Source: Halichondria panicea
Lineage: Eukaryota > Porifera > Demospongiae > Suberitida > Halichondriidae
Direction of reading: 5' to 3'
DNA length: 64,000 bases
Assembly (NCBI RefSeq): GCF_963675165.1
Contig: NC_087389.1
Coordinates: 2,824,001-2,888,000, forward strand
A program made the position numbers and the translations under genes. The notes beneath the pieces are model-generated. The model searched no databases and was not told the DNA's origin. It worked only from the letters and a program-made list of their open reading frames with translations. Position 1 is the first letter of the stretch. Each line of letters starts with the position of its first letter. Below are positions 2,916 to 57,780 of the stretch, piece after piece.

Positions 2916-5900
2916 AGACTGCTAGCTACAGCTGCTCAAGGATCAATGAAATGCAAGTAAGAGTTTCTATAGGCTTCTAGTCATGTTTTTCTTTATTTTA
3001 ATTTGTGGATTTGCAAAATAATGCTTTGTTCTCAAATTATGCCTAATTTTGCTTACTTAGAATGCCATTGCAGCCTTTTGGAAGAGTGCGTAGCAAAATT
3101 TGTTCACCGAGTGTTGCTACTATGCTTATAGTAGTTAGCTCTGCATGCACTAGAACGCTAGCTATTGGTAGCTGCAAGAGTGAGAAGAGAGCTACAAGGC
3201 TCTGCGCAGCCATCAATTTTAGACTTAAACTTTTGGCATCAATCGTTTTTAACAACAGTCGTGGTTGATCATTCATTACCCACTATTCGAATTTCCCTGT
3301 GATTCTGGAATCTGCCTGCATGCAGCAAAAATTAATTAATGCATCTGATCATGATAATTATAATGTGTCATGCACTCCTGAATAGTAGCTTTATGTTATG
3401 TAGCTTTGGCACCTCCACCGAGGCATCATTAAAATAATTAGCACTACCTTAATTATCTTATTATATAAAGCTTACTTATTTACCTTGTATCTCAGTGTTC
3501 CCCTAATGACTGTCTGTGCCTCGGGAATACCATATATGTCAATATAATTGAGTGAGTTCCTGTTGAAGTAGCCATCGAAGTCCATTTTCGGGTGAAGGTG
3601 GGAGAATGACTGCAGATTTTCTGGAGCCATTAATTGTCCCGGAGCTGTCTCAAATATCTACATGATGATGGATCTCAAAATGAATATGGTGTGACATTCT
3701 TACTTGGTTGTCTCTTTTGTACTTGCCCTGGTTAAGAGCCGCTAGCAAAACTCCCTTGGGACTCCAGCTGTATATGCATGGTGTTACGATTATTAATAGT
3801 ATGGCTATAAGAGTGCAATATGGGATTAATAGCACGAGTAACAGCAATGGCAAGGATACTAATTGCACAAGGCGTAGCCGAGTGCTATTAACCTTGCCAG
3901 TGCTTGTTGTTTTGAGTGCTATTAATCCCTTATTCCACGAGTAACCATACTATTGATACAATGCGTTGTCATTGACAGCGTGCAATTACTTGATAGGTAA
4001 TTGCACGCTGTCAATGACAATGTGCACCGGATATGATACGGGATTAATTGCTGTACACTCTCCAGTCACTAATAGCACATCATACGATTAGTATAATTAA
4101 TAGTATGGCTATTCGTGCAATATGGGATTAATAGCACGAGTAACAAGCAATGGCAAGGTTAATAGCACTCGGCGTATGCACGAGTAGCCATACTATTGAT
4201 TGTTAATCGTTTGTGATGCAGTTTTAAGGACATTTTTAGCTGCAGTTTCAGTAAAAAAACATTAGCGGCGGCTGTTATTCGAACGTGCGGTCGTCAAGGC
4301 AATAATTGCACGTCGTTAATGATGACGTGCAATTACTGCCTTTACGACGTGCAATTACTGATACGCGATTAATCACTGTACGAATTACAATGAATAATAG
4401 GACAACATGCGATTATGGCTATAATCAATAATGCTAACCTGAACTTGTATCTCAAAGGATTGTTAGCATAATCTGGATGAGGTAACCCTCCGCACCAAGA
4501 CTCAAACGAAACTACCTACATTGTATTATATGAACTCAAAATTATAATCAGCAAATTAATATACCTTTCCACCGTTGCTGTGAACCTCATCAAAACACTC
4601 CATTGCCAACATGTGGTCTATTCCAGGATCAACACCGACTTCATTCATCAGAGTTATACCAGCGTCCATGGCAGGTTTATGAAACTCCTGCATACATGTA
4701 AAGATAAAAAACACGTTCGTATAGTAACAGGCTATTTGCAGTCTGCATGAGAACTACAATCAAGCTACAATGTCATTTACCTGCAGTTCTGATGTGACAT
4801 AACTTGATGTGACAAGACTTTTCCTATGTTTAATGCACTGTTTTGCCGCAAGTGTGTGTTGAGTATGGAGCACATTGCTGTAACAGTTAATCAACATTTT
4901 ACTCCATTACTGCACCAGTCATCAAAATAGTATATAATGCACATACTGTGCTGTTTGTATTAAATTATCGTCCCCCATGCAATTAAGAAAGACGTAGTGT
5001 GGCTGTTGAAGGCCAAAAAGGGGTTACGAAAACCCGGTATATAGTCTAGAAGTGATTTTGAAGCAAAAATTGTCCTAATTAAAAATACTTCAGTAAACTA
5101 TTAAGAACTGTCAAGTAGCCGCTTTTAAGTTAGTCATTCACAATAGACAAACATAAGACAGTGGAGCACACATTTTTAGTAGAACTAATAGAAAACGGCA
5201 CAATCAATGCAGCCTACAGAAATTGCATAATTCTATTTCTAACATAATGATTAGCTAATTACTCCCCCTTTAAGATGTGATCGTCGACATAATACATTCC
5301 TGTATATATAGGTACAAGGTTTTGAAATCTCAAGGGATGTACTAAGTTCTATAGTAGTCACAGCAACATCTGCTGCACGATCGGTAATTCCTGTATAGGT
5401 TGCATGTTTTCAGTTCAGTTCGAGTTTTTTGGTTGCTGTGTATACAGGCAGCACATCTAAATCAGGTGGTAATTCCACTTTCATTTTACGTTTTCTGTTC
5501 CTAGTGTGACAACAAAGTAAGCGTTCATCCATTCAATTCTAACATGAGTGAACCACAACTTTTGCCTAATGGTCCTATGGTTATACCATCTTGTCCCCTT
5601 GCAAATAATAATTGTAATTATGTTTGAAATTACTTTGAAGTTGAAGAAGTCTATATATGAATGGAAATCTTTAACTTCGAAACTTCTATATTCTTTGCCT
5701 TAGAGTCGTGCTGCATGTGCTAAGCTTTCTCCTATCTCATTCGGCTTCATCGGATCAAACCTCGTCCTAGCTAAGGTGCTTCTAACATTTTTGCTGTACT
5801 TAGAAACACGTGAGTGTTAGGAAATCCAGCACTTATACTCTCGCAATCTACGAATACTTCCTTTGTTTAAATCCTTTCTTCACTATTCATTTTACACTGC

Positions 5901-42063: not shown

Positions 42064-43440
42064 TCCGTATATATAAACTCGTTTTGCATGTAGATACAGT
42101 GGTAGTGTGACACTGTCACCCAGAATGACATAACCAATATTTTTTACTATGTGCTAGCGCCAAGAGTAGATGGCGATTCTATTTTGTAGCCTGACACTCA
42201 TCTCCAGGCCAATTTTCTTTAATGTGTAATCTGGAAAAATTGACCTGGGACAACCACTGCAAAGATCAAAGCATTCCAGTCATATGTACAATGTCAATAT
42301 TATGTCAGTGTTGCACTCTCCTACACTATGACAGTTTATAAGAACACATAACTATAGCAACCATAACCCTAACCCTATAACCCTACATAATTATATTAAT
42401 TGCGGTGCATTAGTATCATTAGGTACGGTATAGCCGATAATTTTCGTTGTCCAAATTTGTGTGTAAATTAACAAAATACTTCGTATTCTAAAGATTCGTA
42501 CAGCTCAGAATGGTGACGTAGAACCATTTTTGAATGATGCTTCTCTACAATACAAAAAGACGAAAATGTGCACTATACAAAAATAACCTGCTATACAGTA
42601 TCAAGAGTTCATGAACTCTTGACAGTATCTAGTATTATACACTGCATGCAAGTATATAGCCAAACAGCAAATTGATTATTGTAGTTATTGCATGGGCCTG
42701 TGCAATATGGCACTGGATCAATGGCATTATGTCACTCTAGTGATGAGTAAAAGAGGGTACCAGGTAAGGTAAGAGGTATTATAGTGAGACGGAAAAAAGG
42801 ATTTTCAGCAGCTATTTCGGGAGTTTTACGCGCTTGTGTTGACAGAGGTACCACTTAAGTACAGTGGGTGTGGAAAGAATTAAATTTGAACTGGTATCTA
42901 TTACCACTCGCGTTTTAAATCAACATGGTCCTGCCGCACCCTCTATCATAGTTAGGGTATTGCGTTACACTCACATGAAAGGTATGAAGTATGAATACTT
43001 GTACAGCTCAGAATGGTGACGTAGAACCATTTTTGAATGATGCTTCTATGGCAACATTTTTAGCAGCATTCTTTACTACTATGAAGATATGTGATTGACT
43101 TGTATCTATATATTGTCGGCGAGTGTCCAATCTTTATTTCATTTTGAGAAGAATTGGCCTGCATGGGATGGATCGACCGAAGTGCAGAGAGATGGTTCTC
43201 AGCATTCTGGGAGCCATGCCATCTGATCGATTCTTTACATCAAATGCCCTAGTAAGCTTTCGGATTCTTTTTTGGCAAACACTCCGCTCCCTTGTACGTA
43301 CCCTTTACTAATTGTGGCTACCTCAAGCAAGCTATTTAATGCTGTTATCTCCAAGTATGAAGCATTTCTTTTGAATTACATGACAAATTAACAAGTGTCC
43401 TTGTCCCAATTTGCCTGTGAGTGTTGTGTTCTGCCAACAC
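42064..43440. other. Intergenic with MITE and a local duplication
   Basis: Holds a CCGTATAGCC-type element (42426-42598). A 50-bp block (CAGCTCAGAATGGTGACGTA to GAATGATGCTTCT) is present at about 42494-42543 and again at 43004-43050. A telomere-like AACCCTAACCCTA lies near 42363. An open stretch ending in a possible donor (43110-43252, CTA|gtaagc) could be an exon of a gene broken by the LTR element. Confidence 0.5.
42426..42598. mobile_element. MITE, CCGTATAGC...GATAATTTTCG family
   Basis: Starts CGGTATAGCCGATAATTTTC and ends ATAACCTGCTATACAG, flanked by TA on each side. It is one of several members (17794, 18824, 39006) that share the same terminal words. Confidence 0.65.
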
Positions 43441-43574
43441 TAAATAATAAGGAGTAATCCTATTTGCTCACGTATTGTAAACTCAGTCAGAATTAGATAT
43501 TCACGTAAATCAATGATTAGTACAACTGATTAAATAAGGTAAATACTACCTATCTATAAAGTCAATGTTCTCTA
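43441..43574 (-). repeat. 3' LTR of the Gypsy element
   Basis: 134 bp, matching the copy at 48343-48476 by eye without difference. On the element's strand it starts TAGAGAACATTG and ends CCTTATTATTTA. Confidence 0.92.
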
Positions 43575-43583
43575 TCTCCTCCC
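43575..43583 (-). other. Polypurine tract
   Basis: GGGAGGAGA on the minus strand directly precedes the 3' LTR, the expected primer for plus-strand DNA synthesis. Confidence 0.75.
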
Positions 43584-43612: not shown

Positions 43613-46600
43613 TTAGTATAGCCATGTACGAGGTTTCTTCACTCTCGTGGATCGTCTTAAAGGGGCGGGGATTGGAATGGGGCTGAGTGGTGGAGGGGGT
43701 TCAGCTGCAGGTGGTGGGGTGGGATCTGCAGGTGGGTTGGGATCCGCTGGTGTGACATGGTCCTCTGCTGTCCCAGGCGGAGTCTCGTCTGATGATGGAG
43801 AAGGGGGTTGAGTGGGTGGTGTGGTAGTGCTGAAGGGTACATGGGTGAGGTCATCTAGGATGGAGCGTTGAATTGCTGGCTGATGAACCGGTGTTATTTT
43901 CCGCACGAACTTTCTGTTCCTGAGAGTTTGTCGGCCTGATCCATCGATGCGAATTAGGTATTGGTGGAATTGGCGCACTTCTATGACAATGCCAGTACGA
44001 TCCCATTTGGTTGGATGGTGGCCTGTTTGGTTTTGGATCCTGACGGTGTCTCCTACACGTAATGGGGTCAGGGGTTTGGTATGCTCGCTCCATTTTTCCT
44101 GTTGTATCAGATGCCGCTTTCTAAGGGCCTCTTCCCTAAGATTGAGAGTATCCCTCCAAGTGGATTGTGGGCGATATTTTCCGGGTAAGATTGGGATGAG
44201 ATCCTTCGTTGGCCTACCAAAGATGCACATGGCTGGGGAGAGCTTTGTGGCGGGGTCGGGTGTGTTCCTGTATTGAAGTATGGCCTGCTGGAATGCATCA
44301 ATAGTGATCGCACCATCTTTTCCAACATTACCAGTGATTAGCCTCTTGATGGTTTTGACTCCTACTTCAGCTCTACAGTTACTGTGTGGGTATGCGACGG
44401 AGCTCAGGCGGTGGTGGACTCCCCAGGTGTGCAGGAGTTGCCTGGTGGTGTGGGCAATGAATTCCGGTCCGCCATCAGATGAGAGTTCGTCCGGTATGCC
44501 ATATGTGGCGAACGTGTGTCGTAGGACGTTGATGAGTCCTGTGGCTCCATCCTTGGCCCTTTCCACAATGGGCCAGTTGGAGTATCGATCGATAATTACA
44601 ATGTAATTGCAGCCTTGGTAATGGAAGTAGTCTGCACATATGCATTGGAAGGGGTAGACTGAAAGCATTGGTGATGTTGGTGGTAATGCCGCTTGTGATG
44701 GGGCCATCCTATTGCATTGTGAGCAATTGGCTCTGGTGGCTTGAATGTCGCTTGTGATTCCAGGCCAGAAGATTGAGGCTTCTGCCTTCGATGTCATGGC
44801 TGATGTCCCCTGATGGGCTGCATGTAAGGCAGACAGACACACTGGTCTGAGTGAAGGTGGGATGACAATTCTATCCTTGTAGATGACGACACCGTCTGTA
44901 CTGTAGAGGTGTTTTCTGAATTGATGGTATTCTCTGATTTCAGCTGGTAGTTGGTGTCTTTGTTCAGGGATGCCATCTTCTATGATAGAGAGGAGGAGCA
45001 GCATGTGTTCATCTGAAGATGTAGCGATTTGGACTTCTTCCCAGTTGACTGTGTGTGTCGAGTGTAGGGAGGATATGAAGGATTCTTGAAGTTCGTTTTC
45101 CACCTCTATAGAGTGCAGCTGGTCCTCTGTGCATATGCCAGCCATTAGTTGTGTTGGGATGTGCAGGGTAGGGGCAGTGGTGCCATCTTGTATGCCGTGA
45201 ATGTCATCGTGAAGGACCATTTTGGGTGGATTTTGGTCTCCTGTGGGGTGTCTTGAGAGTGTATCTGGGGCCCTGTTTTTGACGCCAGGGATGTGAGCCA
45301 TTTTGAACCGATATCGCAGGGTCTTTTCTTTAAGATTTCTCAATCTGGTGTTACTGATTTGGTCTAGGGACCTGTCTCCGAATATCTTCAATAGTGGTCT
45401 GTGGTCTACGGCAATGGTTAGGTTGTTGCAGCCCAGGACGAAGTGTCGTGATTTGTCAAGGGCATCTGCGACTGCCAGTGCTTCACCTTCAATTGGGGCA
45501 TATCTGGATTCGGCTGCGTGCGTGAATCTGCTGCCCACTAGGGTTATCTTCCAACCGGTTGTGCAGCAGAAGAGGTCGTTTGAGGGGCAGGAACAGTGTT
45601 TTTGGAACAACCAGTAGCCAATGCCATTTTTTGACCAATCGGTAGCAAGACATGTTGGTTTAGTTTTGTCAAATATGGTCACCCCGTTGTGGATCTCTGT
45701 GATGATTGTCTGCTTTGACTGTTCGAACGCCTGTTGGAGTGTATCGTCCCACTGGAATTTGTTGTTGGCTTTGAGTAGGTCTCTGAAGGGGAGCATCACA
45801 TCAGTCATGCTGAATGCATACGATACCTGATTCACTAACCCGAACCAAGATCTTACGTCCGTTAGGTTTTGTGGGATGGGAAACTCTGAGATGGCTCTGA
45901 CGTACTTTTTGCATGGCTTCACCGTGTCATTCGTTATCTCAAATCCTGCGAATTCTACTTCGTCTTGGGCGAATCGGAATTTGTCTGGGTTGAGGGTGAT
46001 ACCATGTTTGCCACAGACGTCCAGCCAATTGCATGCTTGGAAAAAGCTTTCTTCGATATTGTCTGCCCATAAGAGGGTATCGTCCACACACTTCGTTTTA
46101 TTGGGGACAAGTGAGGTGATTTCATCGTATCTCCTGGTGTAACCGTCGCCGGAAGCGATGTATCCTTGTGGTGCTGTACGGTACCTGTAACGACCCCATG
46201 GGGTGATAAACGTGGTGTAGTGTTTGTCTTCAGGGTGAAGAGGTACACTGTGGTAGCCGTTCCATGCGTCAAAGACGGTTTTTTTCTTCCCTTGGGGAAC
46301 TGACCGTGCTTGATGGAATGGCGACTGGGTATGATGTGTTTCCCTGGTGGCGTGGAGGTTGAGGGCTTGGAAGTCAATGGTCCTTCGAGGTTTGCCAGTT
46401 TTCTTGGCACAGATGACCATACGATGGCACCATGTTACCGGGTCTCCAATTGGTACGGGTTCGAGGACTCCCAATCTCACGTCTCTGTCTAGGCCAGCTT
46501 TAACTTCATCCTGCCAGTGGAGGGGTACTGGTATTGGTGAATGATGGGCAGATGGGGTGGCATGTGGGTCGATCATTAGCCTCATTGGCGGGCCTTCCAT

Positions 46601-48220
46601 GAGGGGAAGTGTTTGATGTTCGCAGACATTGAAGGTGCTGGACTTGTAGCGATCGAGGAGGTATTTTTCGAGTTTATCCCGATTGGGGATAGGGGGTGGT
46701 TGGGTCCGTTTGGGGCATTGGCAGTCTTGTGGTTGAGGCGTGATAGTGGCACACATTGGGGTGTCTTCCTCGACGCTGTCAATGGCTGGGAATTTGTTGG
46801 AGATTATCCCTAGGTCTGTGCAAGCTTCCCTGCTGAGGAATAGCTTGTCTGTGTTGCTGGTCACATACACCATCTGCCTGGTTGAGGTTTTTTCTCCTTT
46901 GTCATTGGTCCCTGATAGTCTGAGTATGGTGGCACCGAGGATGCGTATATCATGGTTGTCTGCTGCATGCATCTTGAGAGCGACGGGAATGAGATCCTTT
47001 GTGGATAGTCCCAGTTTCTTCACAATTTTGAGTCCTGCCAAGCAGCTTTGGCAGCCCGTGTCGGCCAGGGCGCTGACAAACGATTGCTGTCTTGGATTTT
47101 TGAGGGTGAACCCAAAGTGGTTGTAGTCCTCTCTTTCAACGCTCATCTGTAGCCTAACAAATGGTTGTGGCTTGGATTGTCTCCGTAACCACCCCTTGGT
47201 GAACTGATCGAAGATGTGGTGGTCCAGGGGTGTAGAGTTAGAGTTGTCCGTTGAGGACAGCCCACATAGTGTATCGAAAATTGCATCTCCGTGTTCGGTC
47301 GTCTTTGTGCCGTTCTTGACTCTACACACCTTTTCGAAGTGGTGATCTTTGTCACAGTGGTTGCACTTGGTGCCATAGGCTGGGCATTCGGTTCGCCTGA
47401 TCCTTGTTGGGGGGTTTCTCCCGTGCCCCTTGGTCCCACAGTATGTGCAGGTATCCTGGTGTTTTGGCAGTGGTTCCTTCATTGGTGGTCTTTTCTGCTT
47501 TCTGTATGAACTGCCCGCCACTGCATCAGTGGCTTGTGGTAGTAGCAGGCGGGATGCCGATCGTTTGCCTGCTTCCTTTGCCTCGATGAATTTGAGGATC
47601 TGCTCTTGGTTGCTGTCTCCCAACAAGTCCATTTGGATATCCGTGTCTTCTAGGCCTCTGCAGAGCACGTCTCTGAGTACAGCTTCTGTATAGTCTACGT
47701 CAGCGTCACATCCAGTACATTTGTGTGTGAACTTACAAATACTGGCTTGTCCTCTCAATCTGGCCCCGTAGGCCCGTATGGGTTCGTCTCGATCTTGCCT
47801 CATGTTATGGAGGGTCACCCTCGCTATCATAGTGTTCTCCTCTCTTACTGCTAGCTTCTTCATGGCTGTGAATACTTCATCTTCTGTCATTCTGGTGAGG
47901 GAGCCTCCTGCATTTCTGGTGAGGTCCTTGCGGAGCTGGTCATCACAGCACTCCAGTAGTTGGATGACCTTGTCAGTGCCTTCCAACCTAGTCGCTCGTG
48001 CATAGTCATTCCATCTCGACTTGAAGTAGTGCCAGTCCTCGGTCGTGCCAGCTGATGAAATACATGGCCTTTTCACCTGTTCGACTCTTGCTGCCTGTGT
48101 TGGTCTATCAGGTGCCCGGTGGCTGGTTGAGTGGGTTGTGATGAGTGCAGCTGCAATTATTGGTTCCACATCAGGGGTCTCATACTCACAGCCTTCTATT
48201 GGGCATTTAACCAGGGGCAT
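43613..48220 (-). CDS. Gag-Pol polyprotein of the Gypsy element
   Basis: One open frame of 1,535 aa with no stop. Gag-like N-terminal part (WHYFKSRWNDYAR near residue 63), then Cys/His knuckles near 257-300 (CTYCGTKGHG, CNHCDKDHHFEKVC). An aspartic protease follows with ADTGC near 385, and reverse transcriptase with CVDD near 708, where most relatives have Y-x-DD. The RNase H first Asp is in LATDWSKNG near 860. The integrase has an HHCC finger near 1130-1165 and the D-D-E triad near 1195, 1247 and 1283. The tail is Pro-rich and ends RRSTRVKKPRTWLY. No chromodomain is apparent. Gag and Pol share a single frame, so product ratio control by frameshift is not expected. Confidence 0.93.
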   Translation of the reverse strand: MPLVKCPIEGCEYETPDVEPIIAAALITTHSTSHRAPDRPTQAARVEQVKRPCISSAGTTEDWHYFKSRWNDYARATRLEGTDKVIQLLECCDDQLRKDLTRNAGGSLTRMTEDEVFTAMKKLAVREENTMIARVTLHNMRQDRDEPIRAYGARLRGQASICKFTHKCTGCDADVDYTEAVLRDVLCRGLEDTDIQMDLLGDSNQEQILKFIEAKEAGKRSASRLLLPQATDAVAGSSYRKQKRPPMKEPLPKHQDTCTYCGTKGHGRNPPTRIRRTECPAYGTKCNHCDKDHHFEKVCRVKNGTKTTEHGDAIFDTLCGLSSTDNSNSTPLDHHIFDQFTKGWLRRQSKPQPFVRLQMSVEREDYNHFGFTLKNPRQQSFVSALADTGCQSCLAGLKIVKKLGLSTKDLIPVALKMHAADNHDIRILGATILRLSGTNDKGEKTSTRQMVYVTSNTDKLFLSREACTDLGIISNKFPAIDSVEEDTPMCATITPQPQDCQCPKRTQPPPIPNRDKLEKYLLDRYKSSTFNVCEHQTLPLMEGPPMRLMIDPHATPSAHHSPIPVPLHWQDEVKAGLDRDVRLGVLEPVPIGDPVTWCHRMVICAKKTGKPRRTIDFQALNLHATRETHHTQSPFHQARSVPQGKKKTVFDAWNGYHSVPLHPEDKHYTTFITPWGRYRYRTAPQGYIASGDGYTRRYDEITSLVPNKTKCVDDTLLWADNIEESFFQACNWLDVCGKHGITLNPDKFRFAQDEVEFAGFEITNDTVKPCKKYVRAISEFPIPQNLTDVRSWFGLVNQVSYAFSMTDVMLPFRDLLKANNKFQWDDTLQQAFEQSKQTIITEIHNGVTIFDKTKPTCLATDWSKNGIGYWLFQKHCSCPSNDLFCCTTGWKITLVGSRFTHAAESRYAPIEGEALAVADALDKSRHFVLGCNNLTIAVDHRPLLKIFGDRSLDQISNTRLRNLKEKTLRYRFKMAHIPGVKNRAPDTLSRHPTGDQNPPKMVLHDDIHGIQDGTTAPTLHIPTQLMAGICTEDQLHSIEVENELQESFISSLHSTHTVNWEEVQIATSSDEHMLLLLSIIEDGIPEQRHQLPAEIREYHQFRKHLYSTDGVVIYKDRIVIPPSLRPVCLSALHAAHQGTSAMTSKAEASIFWPGITSDIQATRANCSQCNRMAPSQAALPPTSPMLSVYPFQCICADYFHYQGCNYIVIIDRYSNWPIVERAKDGATGLINVLRHTFATYGIPDELSSDGGPEFIAHTTRQLLHTWGVHHRLSSVAYPHSNCRAEVGVKTIKRLITGNVGKDGAITIDAFQQAILQYRNTPDPATKLSPAMCIFGRPTKDLIPILPGKYRPQSTWRDTLNLREEALRKRHLIQQEKWSEHTKPLTPLRVGDTVRIQNQTGHHPTKWDRTGIVIEVRQFHQYLIRIDGSGRQTLRNRKFVRKITPVHQPAIQRSILDDLTHVPFSTTTPPTQPPSPSSDETPPGTAEDHVTPADPNPPADPTPPPAAEPPPPLSPIPIPAPLRRSTRVKKPRTWLY

Positions 48221-48328
48221 TGTTGGACCACGTGGTGGTGCTCTCTATTTGGGTATAATTCTTCTTGGCCTTTTGTAACAGCTTCTTGCTTCAGGGATAG
48301 TAGGAAGATCGTTCCTCTTGATTTAGTG

Positions 48329-48342
48329 AGTTGTACTAATCA
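48329..48342 (-). other. Putative self-priming primer-binding site
   Basis: The 14 nt directly downstream of the 5' LTR read TGATTAGTACAACT on the element strand. This is the exact reverse complement of AGTTGTACTAATCA within the LTR (plus-strand 48416-48429). The site does not start TGG, as a tRNA 3'-end match would. Tf1/sushi elements prime from the 5' end of their own RNA in just this way. Confidence 0.6.
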
Positions 48343-48476
48343 TAAATAATAAGGAGTAATCCTATTTGCTCACGTATTGTAAACTCAGTCAGAATTAGAT
48401 ATTCACGTAAATCAATGATTAGTACAACTGATTAAATAAGGTAAATACTACCTATCTATAAAGTCAATGTTCTCTA
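48343..48476 (-). repeat. 5' LTR of the Gypsy element
   Basis: 134 bp, same as the 3' LTR. If the self-priming reading is right, transcription should begin at or near the AGTTGTACTAATCA segment, about 47 bp into the LTR. Confidence 0.92.
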
Positions 48477-48599
48477 AACACCTTCAACTCTAATGACTGC
48501 AATCCAGCAAGTTTCCCGTTAAGAGTTCCTGACAAAGCCAGCAGCAGCGATTGTACTGATGAATCCAATCAATCACAGAGCTTTCTGGAGTGCAAAGTC

Positions 48600-49410
48600 A
48601 CCCATGCAGTAACGTTCATACTGCGTCAACGGACATGCAGTGGTTGTCGGGTTTCTGCAAATTCTCTCTGGACTTTGTATTCCAGCAGGTCTGGGGTGTG
48701 TGGATATCTACGTGCAATGATAGTGCGTGAGGGTTAAATACTCTCACATCAATGAAAGTTCTTTCAAAAGGGCACTATGCAGACAAATGAGTTGCCATGC
48801 AGTAACGTTCATACTGCGTCAGCGGACATGCAGTGGTTGTCGGTTTCTGCAAATTCTCTCTGGACTTTGTATTCCAGCAGGTCTGGGGTGTGTGGATATC
48901 TACGTGCAATGATAGTGCGTGAGGGTTAAATACTCTCACATCAATACAGTAGACTCCCGCTATTCCGGCTCCCTGAAGTACGGCCACCTCGATATACCGG
49001 CCATTTGGCTTGGCACGGAATGCTAGCTATATGTTTACTGCACAAAACTCACCCTGAAGTACGGCCACTCGCTATTCCGGTTACCGGCCAGTGCTGGCTG
49101 TCCCAAACAAGGTTTTCAATGTAATTTTATACGTGTATTACGGCGGGATATGACGTTTTGGGTGTGGTTTAGCAAATAAAATTGAATTACACTTAAATAG
49201 AGAACAAAATGATTCATTATCCTCGAGACAAAAACCGCAAAAGTAGTCATTAGATTCGAGGTAAGGTCTTTTTTTAAGCCGCGGCTATTTCCTGAGCTAC
49301 AGCCACCTCGCTATTCCGGCCAAGCTGCATGGTCCCAAGGGTGACCGGATTAACGAGAGTCTACTGTATATGAAGGTTCTTTCAAAAGGGCACTATGCAG
49401 ACAAATGACT
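48600..49410. repeat. Tandem duplication of about 190 bp, second copy split by a MITE
   Basis: GCAGTAACGTTCATACTGCG to GGCACTATGCAGACAAATGA (48609-48788) is repeated from 48799. The second copy breaks at 48946, and its tail (TTCTTTCAAAAGGGCACTAT) resumes after 49366. The frame across the first unit is open and Cys-rich (CSGC), which hints at a disrupted exon. Confidence 0.75.
48947..49366. mobile_element. pogo/Tigger-like MITE with TA duplication
   Basis: TIRs CAGTAGACTCCCGCTATTCC and its imperfect complement ending AGAGTCTACTG are flanked by TA on both sides. Subterminal GTACGGCCACCTCG and CCGGTTACCGGCC repeats follow. CAGT...CTCG...CCGG ends are typical of pogo-group elements. It interrupts the second unit of the local duplication. 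Confidence 0.75.
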
Positions 49411-51659: not shown

Positions 51660-52925
51660 TTGCCTCACACGAGATCAACTTTCATGAGATCAACTCCCAC
51701 GAGATCAATTCTTACCAGAGCAACTTTGCATGAGGTCAACTGTCAATAGATCAACTCTCACAGAATCAACTCAACTCCTGAAATCAACTCAAATCAACTC
51801 TAATCTTGTTATCCAGAAATTAACTTTTTAAAGGTGTTGGCCTCACTTTTTTAGCTAATTACTATTGTGCATGTGCGCCCATGCCAAAGGTTGGCAGGTA
51901 TTGAGTAATAAGCCCCTATAGATTTAGCACAATGCACACTCATTCGCAATGGCTCAATCATCAAGAATTCAGGAAACATTTACTTTCAATCACATCAGCC
52001 CAGAACCAACAACGGTATTTTAATAATGAAAAAAGTCATCGTTAGTACAAAAGCAACCCCTCAACACAAAGGCTGCCTCTGTAAATGGCCTGAAATTTCC
52101 TCCGAAGGTGTTCGTTATAATAGGGTACGTTACACTCAAATTTCAGTGAGGTGGTGAAAATAATAGCTTAGAGCTATGATGTATGTTACTGCGTTCTATC
52201 GTGATAAGCGCCACTGAACTGATCAACCTATGGTATGTAATGAATCTCGTGCCAACTATGTAATCCAATAGGCCCTCTAATAACCAACACCCACTCAAGT
52301 CAATGGCCCACACTTTAAAGGTGCTGTTTCAAATTCTTACCCATGCAGCCGTAACAGCCTGTAGTACCGAACAGTATAATGGCAGCTGCAAAAATTCAAA
52401 CAACAGGCATCCGATTAATATAGATTGAGTGCATCCAACCAAACAAAGATTCAGAGCTACATGCTAGCCTCGATCCCAGGCCGAGTTTTTGCTTTTATAA
52501 CGGTTAGGCGAACAGCCGAGTTTTCGCTTTTATAACGGTTAGGCGTTGTTGTTTTCGCTTTTATAACGGTTAGGCGTTGTTCGCCTAACCGTTATAAAAG
52601 CGAAAACTCGGCCTGGGATCGAGGCTAAGCTACATGCATGTTTGTAGCTACATCTCGGCCATAGAGACGCAAAATAAAAGAGAAGAATCCATACAAACAC
52701 TGTTTAACACGTGAGGCATGACTCTGAAGAGTATATTTATTTTACCAGCCATCAAGCATCTTAACTGTAAAATTTGTAAGTGTAACGTTTTTTGTAATTA
52801 ATCACATGAAGTTGATCCTATGAAAGTTGATTCGTTTATCTACTAACAATTGACCTCATGCAAAGTTGCTCTGGTAAGAATTGATCTCGAGGGAGTTGAT
52901 CTCATGAAAGTTGATCTCGTGTGCA
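51660..52925. mobile_element. Large foldback with arms made of repeated GATCAACT words
   Basis: The left arm (51669-51790) is a string of variants of GAGATCAACTYYCAYGA. The right arm (52800-52925) is the inverse string (GTTGATCTCATGAAAGTTGATC). TTACCAGAGCAACTTTGCAT on the left and its complement on the right align the arms exactly. The 1-kb centre carries the hairpin array at 52468-52628. Confidence 0.7.
52468..52628. repeat. Hairpin array of CGCTTTTATAACGGTTAGGCG units
   Basis: Between AGCCTCGATCCCAGGCC and its complement lie three direct copies of TTCGCTTTTATAACGGTTAG and one inverted copy. A single-unit version occurs at 57895-57965. It looks like a palindromic element in which the arm has been amplified on one side. 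Confidence 0.75.
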
Positions 52926-53839: not shown

Positions 53840-56800
53840 CAAAATTCAAGGGACATGGCACACACATTTGCAAGTATGTGTGTCTCCTAAGGAATTATGA
53901 AAACAGGAGAATCAAAAACAATATGTTGAAATGTGCTACGATGAGATGAGTTTATTTAGTTGATCTTCGAAGATGGCCAACAGTAGAAGAGCAGTAAAGG
54001 AGAGCGTGAATCCGAGGATACACATGCAAACCAATTGAATATTGCCCTTTGGGATATTTCTTCCTGAAATTGAAGGCTTGCTGAAGATAGACTGCAAGCA
54101 CTTTCTTTTGGGAACCGAATGTTAAACTCAAACTAATCTCAAGCCTACTCACCAAGGAGCTCGCTTTGTTTCAAGTCTACTCACCAAGGAGCTCGAGGCT
54201 GCACTGAAAGATGAAGTTGGAGAAATGGACTCTATTTTTGTTTTTTCTGGTATGGCTCTCACGCCTAAGCACGCTCAAGGATGGTCCTCCAGGCGCATGC
54301 AGTATGTTCTCAAGCTGTATGTTAACTCTACCTGCTGGACAGTCCCAGAGATCCACTTTCAGGAGATCAAGTAAAACCTCTCAGTCTTTGGGCTCTAATT
54401 GGAACCTAAACAAAGCACACAAACTCTACTTCCTAGTTATCCTTGTTCTCTCTGGCGATATTCAGTCTAACCCTGGCCCTGTTGTCAATTGGAAGTACCC
54501 TTGTGGAAAATGCAACTGTCCTGTAAAGACCAACCAAGCTGGAATCATGTGTGAAGTCTGCTATGCATGGCACCACTGCAAATGTGTCAGCATTGATGAT
54601 TCTGAGTATCACAGGCTCCAGTTGTCTGATGAAGCATGGTGTTGCTCCTCTTGCTTCAGGACAGCCTTGCCGTTCCATGACTCATCAACACTAAACTCTA
54701 CCATCAGCTCAACCTCTTGCTCTACTTCAGACTCTATTTCTTCCTCACTCGCCAGTTCTCATGGAAGGGACTGCACAATTGTGTACACTAACTGTCGCAG
54801 CGTACTGCCCAAAATGGACATCCTTCGTACCCATGCTGCCTCCTTTGGCCCAGATGTTTACGCTCTCACTGAAACCTGGCTCGACGATTCCATATCTGAC
54901 ATTGAGATCTTTATTCCTGACTATACTATCATCCGTCGTGACAGAAATCGCCATGGAGGTGGCGTACTTCTTTACGTCAGGGAGAGTACCCCTGTGGAGC
55001 TAGTTACCAAGCACCCAAGCTTAGAACTCCTGCTAGTAGAAGCTAAATTCACAAACAGCCCTACCCTTCTTGGTATTTACTATAGACCACCTTCGGCGGG
55101 GAGTGCCAACCTTGCAGACCTTGAGTGTGCCCTGGAGAGCCTTCAACCGTCTAGGCTATCAAACTCTATCCTTATGGGTGATTTCAATATTGATCTCTCA
55201 AAAAACTCCATGCAAATGCTTTCTCATTTCCACCTGACCCAGGTTGTCTCTGAACCTACTAGACTCACGGATAAAGGTTCTTCACTTATTGATCATGTCT
55301 ACATCTCTGACCACTCGCTCTTACAGTCGTGCTCCACGTCACCACCTCTAGGGTCCTCTGACCACCAATGCATCTCAGTGGTCCTCAAGTGGTCAACCAG
55401 ACCTATTAAAAGAGTCAAAAGAGACGTGTGGTTGTATTCTAGAGCAGATTGGGATTCAGTTAATGCAGAGCTTTTGTCAGACTCGACCACCACACACTCA
55501 TTCACAGATATAAACTCGGCCTTATCCCAGTGGAAAAACTCCTTCCTTTCAGTCCTCAGTCGACATATCCCTCGACGTCTTGTCTCCACTCGCAAACACA
55601 TCCCTTGGCTGACTACTGAGATCATTCGCTTACTTCGTAGAAGGGATTGCAGTCACTCTCGTGCCAAAGCTCTTAATACAGAATCGTCTTGGTCGAAGTT
55701 TCGCTCTCTCCGAAATCGATCAGTTGCTGCAGTTCGTGCAGCTAAGTGGGCTTTCCTTAAGAGCCTGGGCAGTCTAATTAAGTCACCCAAGGAATTTTGG
55801 TCAACTTACCATGCGCTGTCACCAACTAAGCAGCGTATACCACATACTTTGACAAACGGTACCATCACTGCTGACTCTCCGTTCAGCAAAGCAAATTTGC
55901 TCAACACCCACTTCACCTCATGTCTATCTAACACCACTGATGTCCTTTCATCACCTTGGGATGCTCCTGTTTCACCTTCCCTTGACTCTATTTCCTGCTC
56001 TCCGGACCAGGTGCTTTCATTGCTGTCTAGGACAAAGTTAAAAACTGCCTCAGGGCCAGACGGGATATCTAGTCACATGCTGCGCAAAACCTCATCCTCC
56101 ATCCATCATTTCTTCACGTACCTTTTCAACAAATCGATAGAGACGGGTGTCTTTCCTGAAGAGTGGAAAGCCTCTAATGTAACACCAATATTTAAAGCAG
56201 GCGACCCCAAACTAGCGTCAAACTACCGTCCGATCTCATTACTATCGTTACTATCAAAGGTGCTGGAACGCATTGTTCATAATAAGGTAGTGGAGTATCT
56301 TACTTCCAACAACCTTCTTTCAACACTTCAATTTGGCTTCAGGCGGGGCAGTTCTACCCAGGAGGCAATCCTCCATGCTACTCATGACTGGCACCGCTCA
56401 TTGGACAATGGCTCTAGTGTAGCTGCTGTTTTCTTTGACCTGAGCAAAGCCTTCGACAGAGTCCCTCACCAAGGCCTCCTGAAAACTCTCTGGTCAGCAG
56501 GCATCTCGGGCAGCCTACATAAGTGGTTTACTAGCTACCTCACAAACAGGAAGCAGAAGGTAGTCCTGGATGGTCACTCTTTGTCCACCGCCAATGTCAA
56601 TTCTGGAGTACCACAGGGGTCCATCTTAGGCCCCCTTCTGTTCAGCCTATACATTGATCCCCTAACAAGAATTCCTCTTTCTCCGGGCTCTCAGCTGTTA
56701 TTGTATGCGGACGACATACTCCTGTACAGCCCCATTAGAAATGAATTTGACGTCTTGGATCTTCAAGGAGATATTGATGCCATAGCCAACTGGGTCAACA

Positions 56801-57780
56801 CTGCGGGTCTCACTCTCAATCAGTCAAAAACCAAACTGCTACTCCTCTCCAGAAAGAGACAGCCCCCGTCCATCATACTCTCCACAAACTCAGGTCAAAT
56901 TACACAAGTGAACTCCTTGTCCTACCTTGGAGTTACCATCACAAAAGACCTAAAATGGAATAGCCACATCTCCAACACCTGCGCTAAGGCAAAATCTAAA
57001 CTTGGCTTGTTATACAGGCACTTCAACCAAGCAGATCAGTCCACTCTTTCCTCCCTGTACAAATCACTGGTGCTCCCACTCCTTGATTACTGTAGCAGTG
57101 TGTGGGACCCCTCTTCTTCTTGTGCCATCAATCAGTTAGAGTCGGTTCAGAAGTTTGGAGCGCGACTCTGTACCAAACGCTGGTCAGATCAATACTTACC
57201 TCTGTTAGCTAGTTTATCTTGGCCCTCTCTGAGCACAAGAAGGTCTCAACAGAAAGTAACTCTGTGCCGCAGGATCATCAGGGGGGAATCAATTCTCCAC
57301 TCATCAAGGTTCACACCCAATCCGAAACCTAACCCTCGGCATTACCATCATGACCAACCTCTACTTATCCCCTTTGCCAAAACACTGTCATATCAATCAT
57401 CATTCTTCGTAAATGTGGTTCCACTCTGGAATTCCCTACCAAGCAGTGCTGTCTCTGCAAGTAGTTTACTTAGTTTTAAGGCTCATGTGCGGGATTGTTT
57501 CAATTAATTACTTACTTATAATTAATTGTCTGCTTGCCCTTACTTACAGTTTTGTGTCTGTTAATTAATTTGTATTTCACTGTCCTTGTCACTGCCTGCA
57601 CTTTTTAGTTACTTGTGTTTTTTTGTTTGTTTTGTTTGTTTTTGTTTTTTTTTTGTTGTTTTTTTGTTTTGCCTTTTGCTGTTTTTGTTAGGGCTACCTT
57701 AATATTAGCTCTCAGTTGCTAGTTGGTACGCACCTATGCTCTGCATTAAATTTTATAAAGAAAAAAAAAAAAAAAAAAAA
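53840..57780 (+). mobile_element. CR1/L2-like non-LTR retrotransposon, apparently full-length
   Basis: About 3.9 kb with a 370-bp leader, one long ORF, a T-rich 3' UTR and a terminal oligo-A run (57761-57780). It sits inside an older MITE, which gives exact outer limits. The single ORF carries a PHD-like finger, APE endonuclease and reverse transcriptase; there is no LTR. Confidence 0.88.
54211..57507 (+). CDS. LINE ORF: PHD-like finger, APE endonuclease, reverse transcriptase
   Basis: 1,098 aa without a stop. Residues about 98-150 form a C4HC3-like zinc finger (CGKCNCPVKTNQAGIMCEVC, WHHCKC, WCCSSC), the PHD-type finger found in CR1/L2 ORFs. The endonuclease follows with YTNCRS near 191, LTETWLDDSI, GDFNID near 323 and SDHQ near 383. 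The reverse transcriptase has YRPISLLSLLSKVLERIV, FFDLSKAFDRVPH, GVPQGSILGPLLFSLYI and YADD near 831. The C-terminal thumb region (LYRHFNQADQSTLSSLYKSL and SSVWDPSS) is as in CR1/L2. All catalytic motifs are present, so activity is possible. An upstream ORF1 is not seen. Confidence 0.93.
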   Translation: MKLEKWTLFLFFLVWLSRLSTLKDGPPGACSMFSSCMLTLPAGQSQRSTFRRSSKTSQSLGSNWNLNKAHKLYFLVILVLSGDIQSNPGPVVNWKYPCGKCNCPVKTNQAGIMCEVCYAWHHCKCVSIDDSEYHRLQLSDEAWCCSSCFRTALPFHDSSTLNSTISSTSCSTSDSISSSLASSHGRDCTIVYTNCRSVLPKMDILRTHAASFGPDVYALTETWLDDSISDIEIFIPDYTIIRRDRNRHGGGVLLYVRESTPVELVTKHPSLELLLVEAKFTNSPTLLGIYYRPPSAGSANLADLECALESLQPSRLSNSILMGDFNIDLSKNSMQMLSHFHLTQVVSEPTRLTDKGSSLIDHVYISDHSLLQSCSTSPPLGSSDHQCISVVLKWSTRPIKRVKRDVWLYSRADWDSVNAELLSDSTTTHSFTDINSALSQWKNSFLSVLSRHIPRRLVSTRKHIPWLTTEIIRLLRRRDCSHSRAKALNTESSWSKFRSLRNRSVAAVRAAKWAFLKSLGSLIKSPKEFWSTYHALSPTKQRIPHTLTNGTITADSPFSKANLLNTHFTSCLSNTTDVLSSPWDAPVSPSLDSISCSPDQVLSLLSRTKLKTASGPDGISSHMLRKTSSSIHHFFTYLFNKSIETGVFPEEWKASNVTPIFKAGDPKLASNYRPISLLSLLSKVLERIVHNKVVEYLTSNNLLSTLQFGFRRGSSTQEAILHATHDWHRSLDNGSSVAAVFFDLSKAFDRVPHQGLLKTLWSAGISGSLHKWFTSYLTNRKQKVVLDGHSLSTANVNSGVPQGSILGPLLFSLYIDPLTRIPLSPGSQLLLYADDILLYSPIRNEFDVLDLQGDIDAIANWVNTAGLTLNQSKTKLLLLSRKRQPPSIILSTNSGQITQVNSLSYLGVTITKDLKWNSHISNTCAKAKSKLGLLYRHFNQADQSTLSSLYKSLVLPLLDYCSSVWDPSSSCAINQLESVQKFGARLCTKRWSDQYLPLLASLSWPSLSTRRSQQKVTLCRRIIRGESILHSSRFTPNPKPNPRHYHHDQPLLIPFAKTLSYQSSFFVNVVPLWNSLPSSAVSASSLLSFKAHVRDCFN

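Follow-up and report, generated by a model that had tools for sequence, protein, structure and literature searches.

Self-priming in described elements

Within the Gypsy elements, priming of reverse transcription by the element's own RNA has been attributed to chromoviruses, namely Tf1/sushi and Tcn1 elements, whose hosts are fungi, vertebrates and non-seed plants (PMC6317226, PMC10085805). In Tf1 the 11 nt at the 5' end of the RNA serve as primer, the RNase H cut falling between nt 11 and 12 (PMC7175516). Where Tf1/sushi-type elements have been drawn, the last two nucleotides of the LTR are "always CA" (PMC10085805), and the sushi LTR ends are given as TGTYANR/CNTNACA (PMC3601003). LTRs with other ends are not unique, since Zam likewise lacks TG...CA (PMC3601003). 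For SM-Tcn1, one study reports that a self-primer was not found (PMC2864245).

The sponge element described here resembles the members of the Tf1/sushi group (Tf1, Tf2, Tj1 and sushi-ichi, with Tcn1 nearby) in that the primer-binding site (PBS) which follows the 5' LTR complements the RNA 5' end, here a predicted one, and in having no tRNA-type PBS. It differs from them in the length of the complementary stretch (14–15 nt, and 16 nt in a relative designated L047, against 11 nt in Tf1), in having no chromodomain, and in LTRs which run TA...TA rather than TG...CA. The duplex that Tf1 forms downstream of its PBS (PMC10085805) does not appear to be conserved here.

Two other systems invite comparison. 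Self-priming outside the chromoviruses has been predicted for the TAR lineage of plant Ty1/copia elements, including Houba and Osr-1 (PMC6317226); these, however, belong to the Copia superfamily and to plant hosts, whereas the present element is Gypsy by the order of its reverse transcriptase (RT), RNase H and integrase. In fungal GalEa elements, which likewise have no tRNA PBS, the Conserved Hairpin Site also lies at the LTR edge, but both of its arms are downstream of the LTR and no LTR complement was found (PMC5445492); here one arm is within the LTR. A self-primer in a non-chromoviral Gypsy element was not found in the literature searched, in which subscription journals are thinly covered.

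Anatomy of the element

The window, that is, the whole 64,000-nucleotide (64-kb) stretch of Halichondria panicea DNA which we analysed, carries on its minus strand an element bounded by two identical LTRs (0/134 mismatches). Its coordinates are collected in Table 1. The order of RT, RNase H and integrase, together with the LTRs, polypurine tract and target duplication, identifies it as a Ty3/Gypsy LTR retrotransposon, and it is a recent insertion. The single ORF was searched for domains in three pieces; its first third gave no Pfam match, and a DTG is visible in the linker. The nearest solved structure to its RT is that of Ty3, while the integrase is by sequence nearest to that of foamy virus.

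Table 1. Features of the Gypsy element and of its predicted transcript (window positions)
Feature	Position	Strand	Remarks
5' LTR	48343..48476	-	134 bp; element sense TAGAGAAC...TTATTATTTA; same as 43441-43574
3' LTR	43441..43574	-	identical to 5' LTR
Target-site duplication AACAC, 5' LTR side	48477..48481		5 bp
Target-site duplication AACAC, 3' LTR side	43436..43440		5 bp
gag-pol ORF	43613..48244	-	single, 1543 aa stop to stop, uninterrupted
CCHC zinc knuckle	47324..47365	-	motif scan
Reverse transcriptase domain PF00078	45935..46375	-	E 1.1e-12
RNase H domain PF17917	45368..45670	-	E 2.8e-14
Integrase zinc-binding domain PF17921	44699..44863	-	E 2.3e-10
Integrase core PF00665	44387..44653	-	E 1.2e-11
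Polypurine tract GGGAGGAGA	43575..43583	-	adjoins 3' LTR
PBS TGATTAGTACAACT	48329..48342	-	directly after 5' LTR (element sense)
Predicted self-primer AGUUGUACUAAUCA	48416..48429	-	RNA nt 1-14, +1 = 48429; from complementarity and covariation, start predicted from promoter-like words
Initiator-like TCAGTT around +1	48426..48431	-	promoter-like word
TATA-like TTTATAGA starting at -33	48455..48462	-	promoter-like word
Predicted RNA leader, +1 to PBS end	48329..48429	-	101 nt; fold and consensus fold
Small U5 hairpin upstream of PBS	48352..48363	-	4 bp; both partners changed in one pair
Second stem, 48404-48414 with 48367-48376	48367..48414	-	89.7% of cells paired; both partners changed in one pair

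Complementarity between the primer-binding site and the LTR

The preliminary description of this locus had proposed that the 14 nt just inside the 5' LTR are perfectly complementary to a segment some 47 bp into the LTR, and that the tRNA-type TGG start is missing from the site. All of this proved correct. The PBS pairs without a mismatch with LTR positions 48–61 (48329–48342 against 48416–48429, in an LTR of 48343–48476), the match extends to 15 nt when the last LTR base, 48343, is included, and no TGG occurs within the 24 nt that follow the LTR. A 14/14 match was reached by none of 2000 dinucleotide shuffles of the LTR.

In the 131,455,214-base assembly the exact PBS 14-mer occurs four times, every time in the window family: the window copy accounts for three of them, one in each LTR and one at the PBS, and a second copy on C15 has the fourth in its PBS. 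Allowing one mismatch raises the number to 84 (4 exact and 80 mismatched) versus 65 for the reversed control, which is near background. The window itself holds 34 inverted pairs of at least 13 nt (among pairs lying within 700 nt). Inverted pairs being so common, an inverted repeat is by itself little proof, and the evidential weight comes from the position at the LTR edge and from covariation.

The best explanation, to which we give a probability of roughly 85%, is that this Gypsy element, as Tf1/sushi elements do, uses the 5' end of its own transcript as the primer for minus-strand DNA. Read from the sequence, the steps would be as follows. Transcription would start at 48429, giving an RNA which begins AGUUGUACUAAUCA; the 14 nt at its 5' end would anneal to the PBS, which adjoins U5; the element's RNase H domain would cut after about nt 14; and the 5' fragment so released would prime copying of U5 and R.

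Related elements and covariation

LTR searches of the host genome recovered the second copy of the window family, on C15, together with C1:7.44M and C13:3.30M, which represent two diverged families. The RTs of these two are 87% and 81% identical to that of the window, and their LTRs measure 141 and 152 bp. Each of these LTR pairs is identical and is flanked by its own 5-bp target duplication, as holds for all four host copies of the three families. In C1:7.44M primer and PBS match at 15/15 positions (AGTTGTGTCTAGCAT), and in C13:3.30M at 14/15 plus one G-U (AGTTGTGCGTATCAT). The LTR fragments C1:14.14M (L005) and C2:5.71M (L007) lack the LTR end TTATTATTTA and have no readable PBS edge; they were left out, as were degenerate pieces on C22, C15:2.51M and C2:5.72M. 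In the C22 copy TAGAGA, TATTTA and AGTTGT are all absent from the stretch where the 5' end was expected. The sister families have polypurine tracts similar to that of the window element.

One scan of prokaryote genome contigs gave two further relatives, L047 and L048, both from the same metagenome-assembled genome (MAG) of an Escarpia laminata endosymbiont. The RT of L047 is 72% identical to the window RT over 380 aa. Its contig reads pol, one LTR, gag, the order that would be expected had the assembler collapsed two LTRs. The LTR (3218–3341, TAGAGGG...TTATCTA) was delimited by analogy, no target duplication being visible, and a second copy of it was not found in that MAG assembly. Within it ATTGAGTTGCGATCAT pairs with ATGATCGCAACTCAAT, which overlaps the LTR edge, at 16/16 nt. 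Gypsy contigs such as L047 and L048 in a bacterial symbiont MAG are probably eukaryotic contamination of the assembly, and the L047 element presumably belongs to the tubeworm or to some other eukaryote present in the sample. L048, at 27% identity, and three gag-like contigs (L050–L052) have no inverted pair of at least 13 nt. RT queries against viral contigs, run both singly and in aligned form, gave no relatives; a scan of the viral contigs with the 17-mer of the L047 PBS gave two matches.

The preliminary description had suggested aligning family members for covariation, and the outcome was positive: paired changes occur on both sides of the helix, with different letters in each lineage. With the C15 copy counted in the window family, the four lineages match their own primer and PBS at 13–14/14 positions and those of one another at 7–11/14. 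RNAalifold predicted the primer:PBS helix unprompted from a four-row host-genome alignment, in which 5 of the 15 pairs are changed on both sides, 9 are invariant and 1 is broken in one row. When the partners were slid by 1–3 columns as a control, no pair with a two-sided change remained. The covariation is carried by three families of the host, closely related to one another, and by one contig.

At one position the primer and PBS of the C15 copy do not match, the changed base being carried by both LTRs and absent from the PBS (L002 1549–1562). Since both LTRs carry it and the PBS does not, the mismatch was present already at insertion, and this copy shows that an inserted element can have imperfect primer:PBS pairing. 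An error made while R was copied into minus-strand strong-stop DNA would strike both LTRs and spare the PBS, so that the mismatch would fit the proposed mechanism.

Relation to the Tf1/sushi group

A true Tf1/sushi chromovirus which had lost its chromodomain and its TG...CA ends would account for a primer logic that is the same as in that group (PMC10085805). We regard this as unlikely. The window element gave no chromodomain match at E 0.1 and none of the 28 Chromo matches in the host genome falls within it; the integrase third has no GP[YFWL] motif; the LTRs end in TA...TA; and the RT core reads APQGY and CVDD versus MPFGL and YLDD in Ty3. The TA...TA ends recur in the four host copies of the three families and likewise in L047, where the boundary was set by analogy.

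The reading given in the preliminary description is supported: complementarity and covariation bear out the priming logic known from Tf1/sushi. Membership of the group itself is not supported, the chromodomain and TG...CA ends being missing, and for that reason we do not file the element there. Most likely it represents a self-primed, non-chromoviral Gypsy lineage of unassigned clade, set apart from Tf1/sushi by characters other than RT comparison; most likely, too, it is a new, non-chromoviral instance of a known mechanism.

Predicted transcript start and leader

In 4/4 lineages the primer starts to pair with the PBS at an A preceded by TC, within TC|AGTT in each host family and within TC|ATTG in L047. 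The base before this start is unpaired in all four, C standing opposite C, and the far edge of the helix is in all four the last base of the LTR. From +1 to the LTR end there are 87 nt in each of the three host families, despite LTRs of 134, 141 and 152 bp; it is U3 that varies in length. TCAGTT around +1 resembles the animal initiator consensus. A TATA-like word starts at -33, -31 and -31 in the host families and at -35 in L047, and the window LTR has three such words upstream of +1. In AT-rich LTRs TATA-like words are common, and they lend moderate support to the start site. The initiator-like and TATA-like words are consistent with an RNA starting at the first base of the complementary segment, and it is from them that we infer the start.

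The leader folds strongly. The fold of 48321–48429 has -28.5 kcal/mol (z -4.71), with 0/200 shuffles as low, and the C1:7.44M leader has z -3.00, with 1/200 as low. For the small U5 hairpin by itself, between 13 and 173 of 1000 shuffles fold as low, a stability not clearly beyond chance. Of a three-duplex "pretzel" like that of Tf1, the primer:PBS helix is conserved across lineages and the PBS-downstream duplex does not appear to be. The latter may form in the window family, with -8.6 kcal/mol and 50/1000 shuffles as good, and is weaker elsewhere; the corresponding numbers per 1000 are 64 for the C15 copy, 439 for C1, 911 for C13_3.30M and 126 for L047.

So strong a fold would also suit a helix between PBS and LTR that serves packaging, dimerisation or translation, with priming by some other route, comparable to the Conserved Hairpin Site of GalEa. 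Elements with no clear primer are described, among them Skipper (PMC5006619), SM-Tcn1 (PMC2864245) and GalEa (PMC5445492). Against such a role, which we hold to be quite improbable, the helix sits at the exact location of a PBS, begins at the predicted RNA 5' end and ends on the last LTR base in every lineage.

Transfer RNAs and control families

Priming by a host tRNA is the usual route, and a TGG site is present in the six other Gypsy families that we checked. These controls (C3:4.92M, C11:5.23M, C1:8.17M, C6:0.99M, C15:1.0M and C14:2.2M) are a small part of the 107 host RT matches. All of them have TG...CA LTRs, the TGG of C14 following one extra base, and their best self-matches of 6–8/14 are the same as those of shuffles. 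For the comparison with tRNAs, 63 of 6084 host tRNA candidates were scored, in which ARAGORN recognised 66 genes with 51 distinct sequences and 11 anticodon types. ARAGORN and Rfam gave no match in the 64-kb window.

Mature tRNAs all end in CCA, and a PBS that begins TGA can therefore be anchored to a tRNA 3' end by at most 2 nt. The sites of the four self-complementary lineages start TGATT, TGCTA, TGATA and TGATC, and none has the TGG start. The best agreement of the window PBS with the 51 distinct host tRNA sequences, a partial set with mitochondrial tRNAs outside it, was 7/18; the C3:4.92M family, which served as positive control, has a PBS that agreed with tRNA-Ser(tga) at 10 anchored nt and 14/18 overall. 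A tRNA 3' end fitting the site, the observation that had been named as counting against self-priming, was found in none of these 51 sequences, and the exact 14-mer is absent outside the family.

That a host tRNA, a tRNA fragment or another small RNA primes the element, the LTR match being incidental, is a very improbable reading on the partial tRNA set compared. The PBS lacks TGG, its exact 14-mer is confined to the element family, and among its one-mismatch matches none was seen by eye in the 63 listed tRNA genes. Moreover, PBS sequences vary in step with the LTR, which is not what a fixed RNA of the host would give.

Chance, or a non-functional inverted repeat left by a local duplication or a MITE, has a negligible probability in spite of the many inverted pairs in the window, given the result of the LTR shuffles, the differing sequence that L047, the contig from a second genome, carries, and the compensatory changes among the three host families, which already contradict such a reading.

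Possible origin

In an RT tree of 19 rows, unrooted and computed without Tf1 or sushi, the four self-complementary elements form one clade with support 100/100 on a long branch, and the C3:4.92M family is its neighbour; because the tree is unrooted and the program warned of long branches meeting, this placement is tentative. With 40% identity C3:4.92M is the nearest other RT family found in the host genome. It differs in its LTR (TGTAAGG...CCTACA) and in its PBS (TGGCGCTGTGAACAG), the one with the anchored tRNA-Ser(tga) match.

The odds seem to us about even that Ty3/Gypsy elements acquired self-priming on a second occasion, in a lineage with TA...TA LTRs that is non-chromoviral and probably animal, descended from tRNA-primed ancestors and was carried across distant hosts. 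The tRNA-primed ancestry is suggested by the nearest checked family, C3:4.92M, which keeps a tRNA-Ser-type site. In such a lineage the start signal would also be the primer, which would tie the evolution of promoter, primer and PBS to one another. If this is true, a covarying case with no chromodomain, present in two genomes, would suggest more than one departure from tRNA priming among Gypsy elements. The four lineages offer a natural alignment for testing primer length, start site and leader structure. Primer-site finders that work from tRNA libraries would presumably miss a self-priming lineage of the TA...TA kind.

Neighbouring features

Just outside the 5' end of the element lie two near-identical direct repeats, 48602–48753 and 48795–48945, about 193 bp apart. 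A MITE-like sequence of about 426 bp (48944–49369), whose terminal inverted repeats of 25 nt are 88% complementary, seems to split the second repeat unit, which resumes at 49370. Further along, 51666–51755 and 52834–52923 form a 90-nt inverted repeat, 94% complementary, with its arms 1078 nt apart. The plus strand carries a non-LTR retrotransposon at 54208–57507, where an ORF of 1099 aa has both an endonuclease and a reverse transcriptase domain. One ORF of the window matches the Rolling stone family, which is an animal family. Elsewhere in the host genome a repeat with a partial chromodomain, three stops and the same 125-aa open frame accounts for 18 copies among the 28 Chromo matches.
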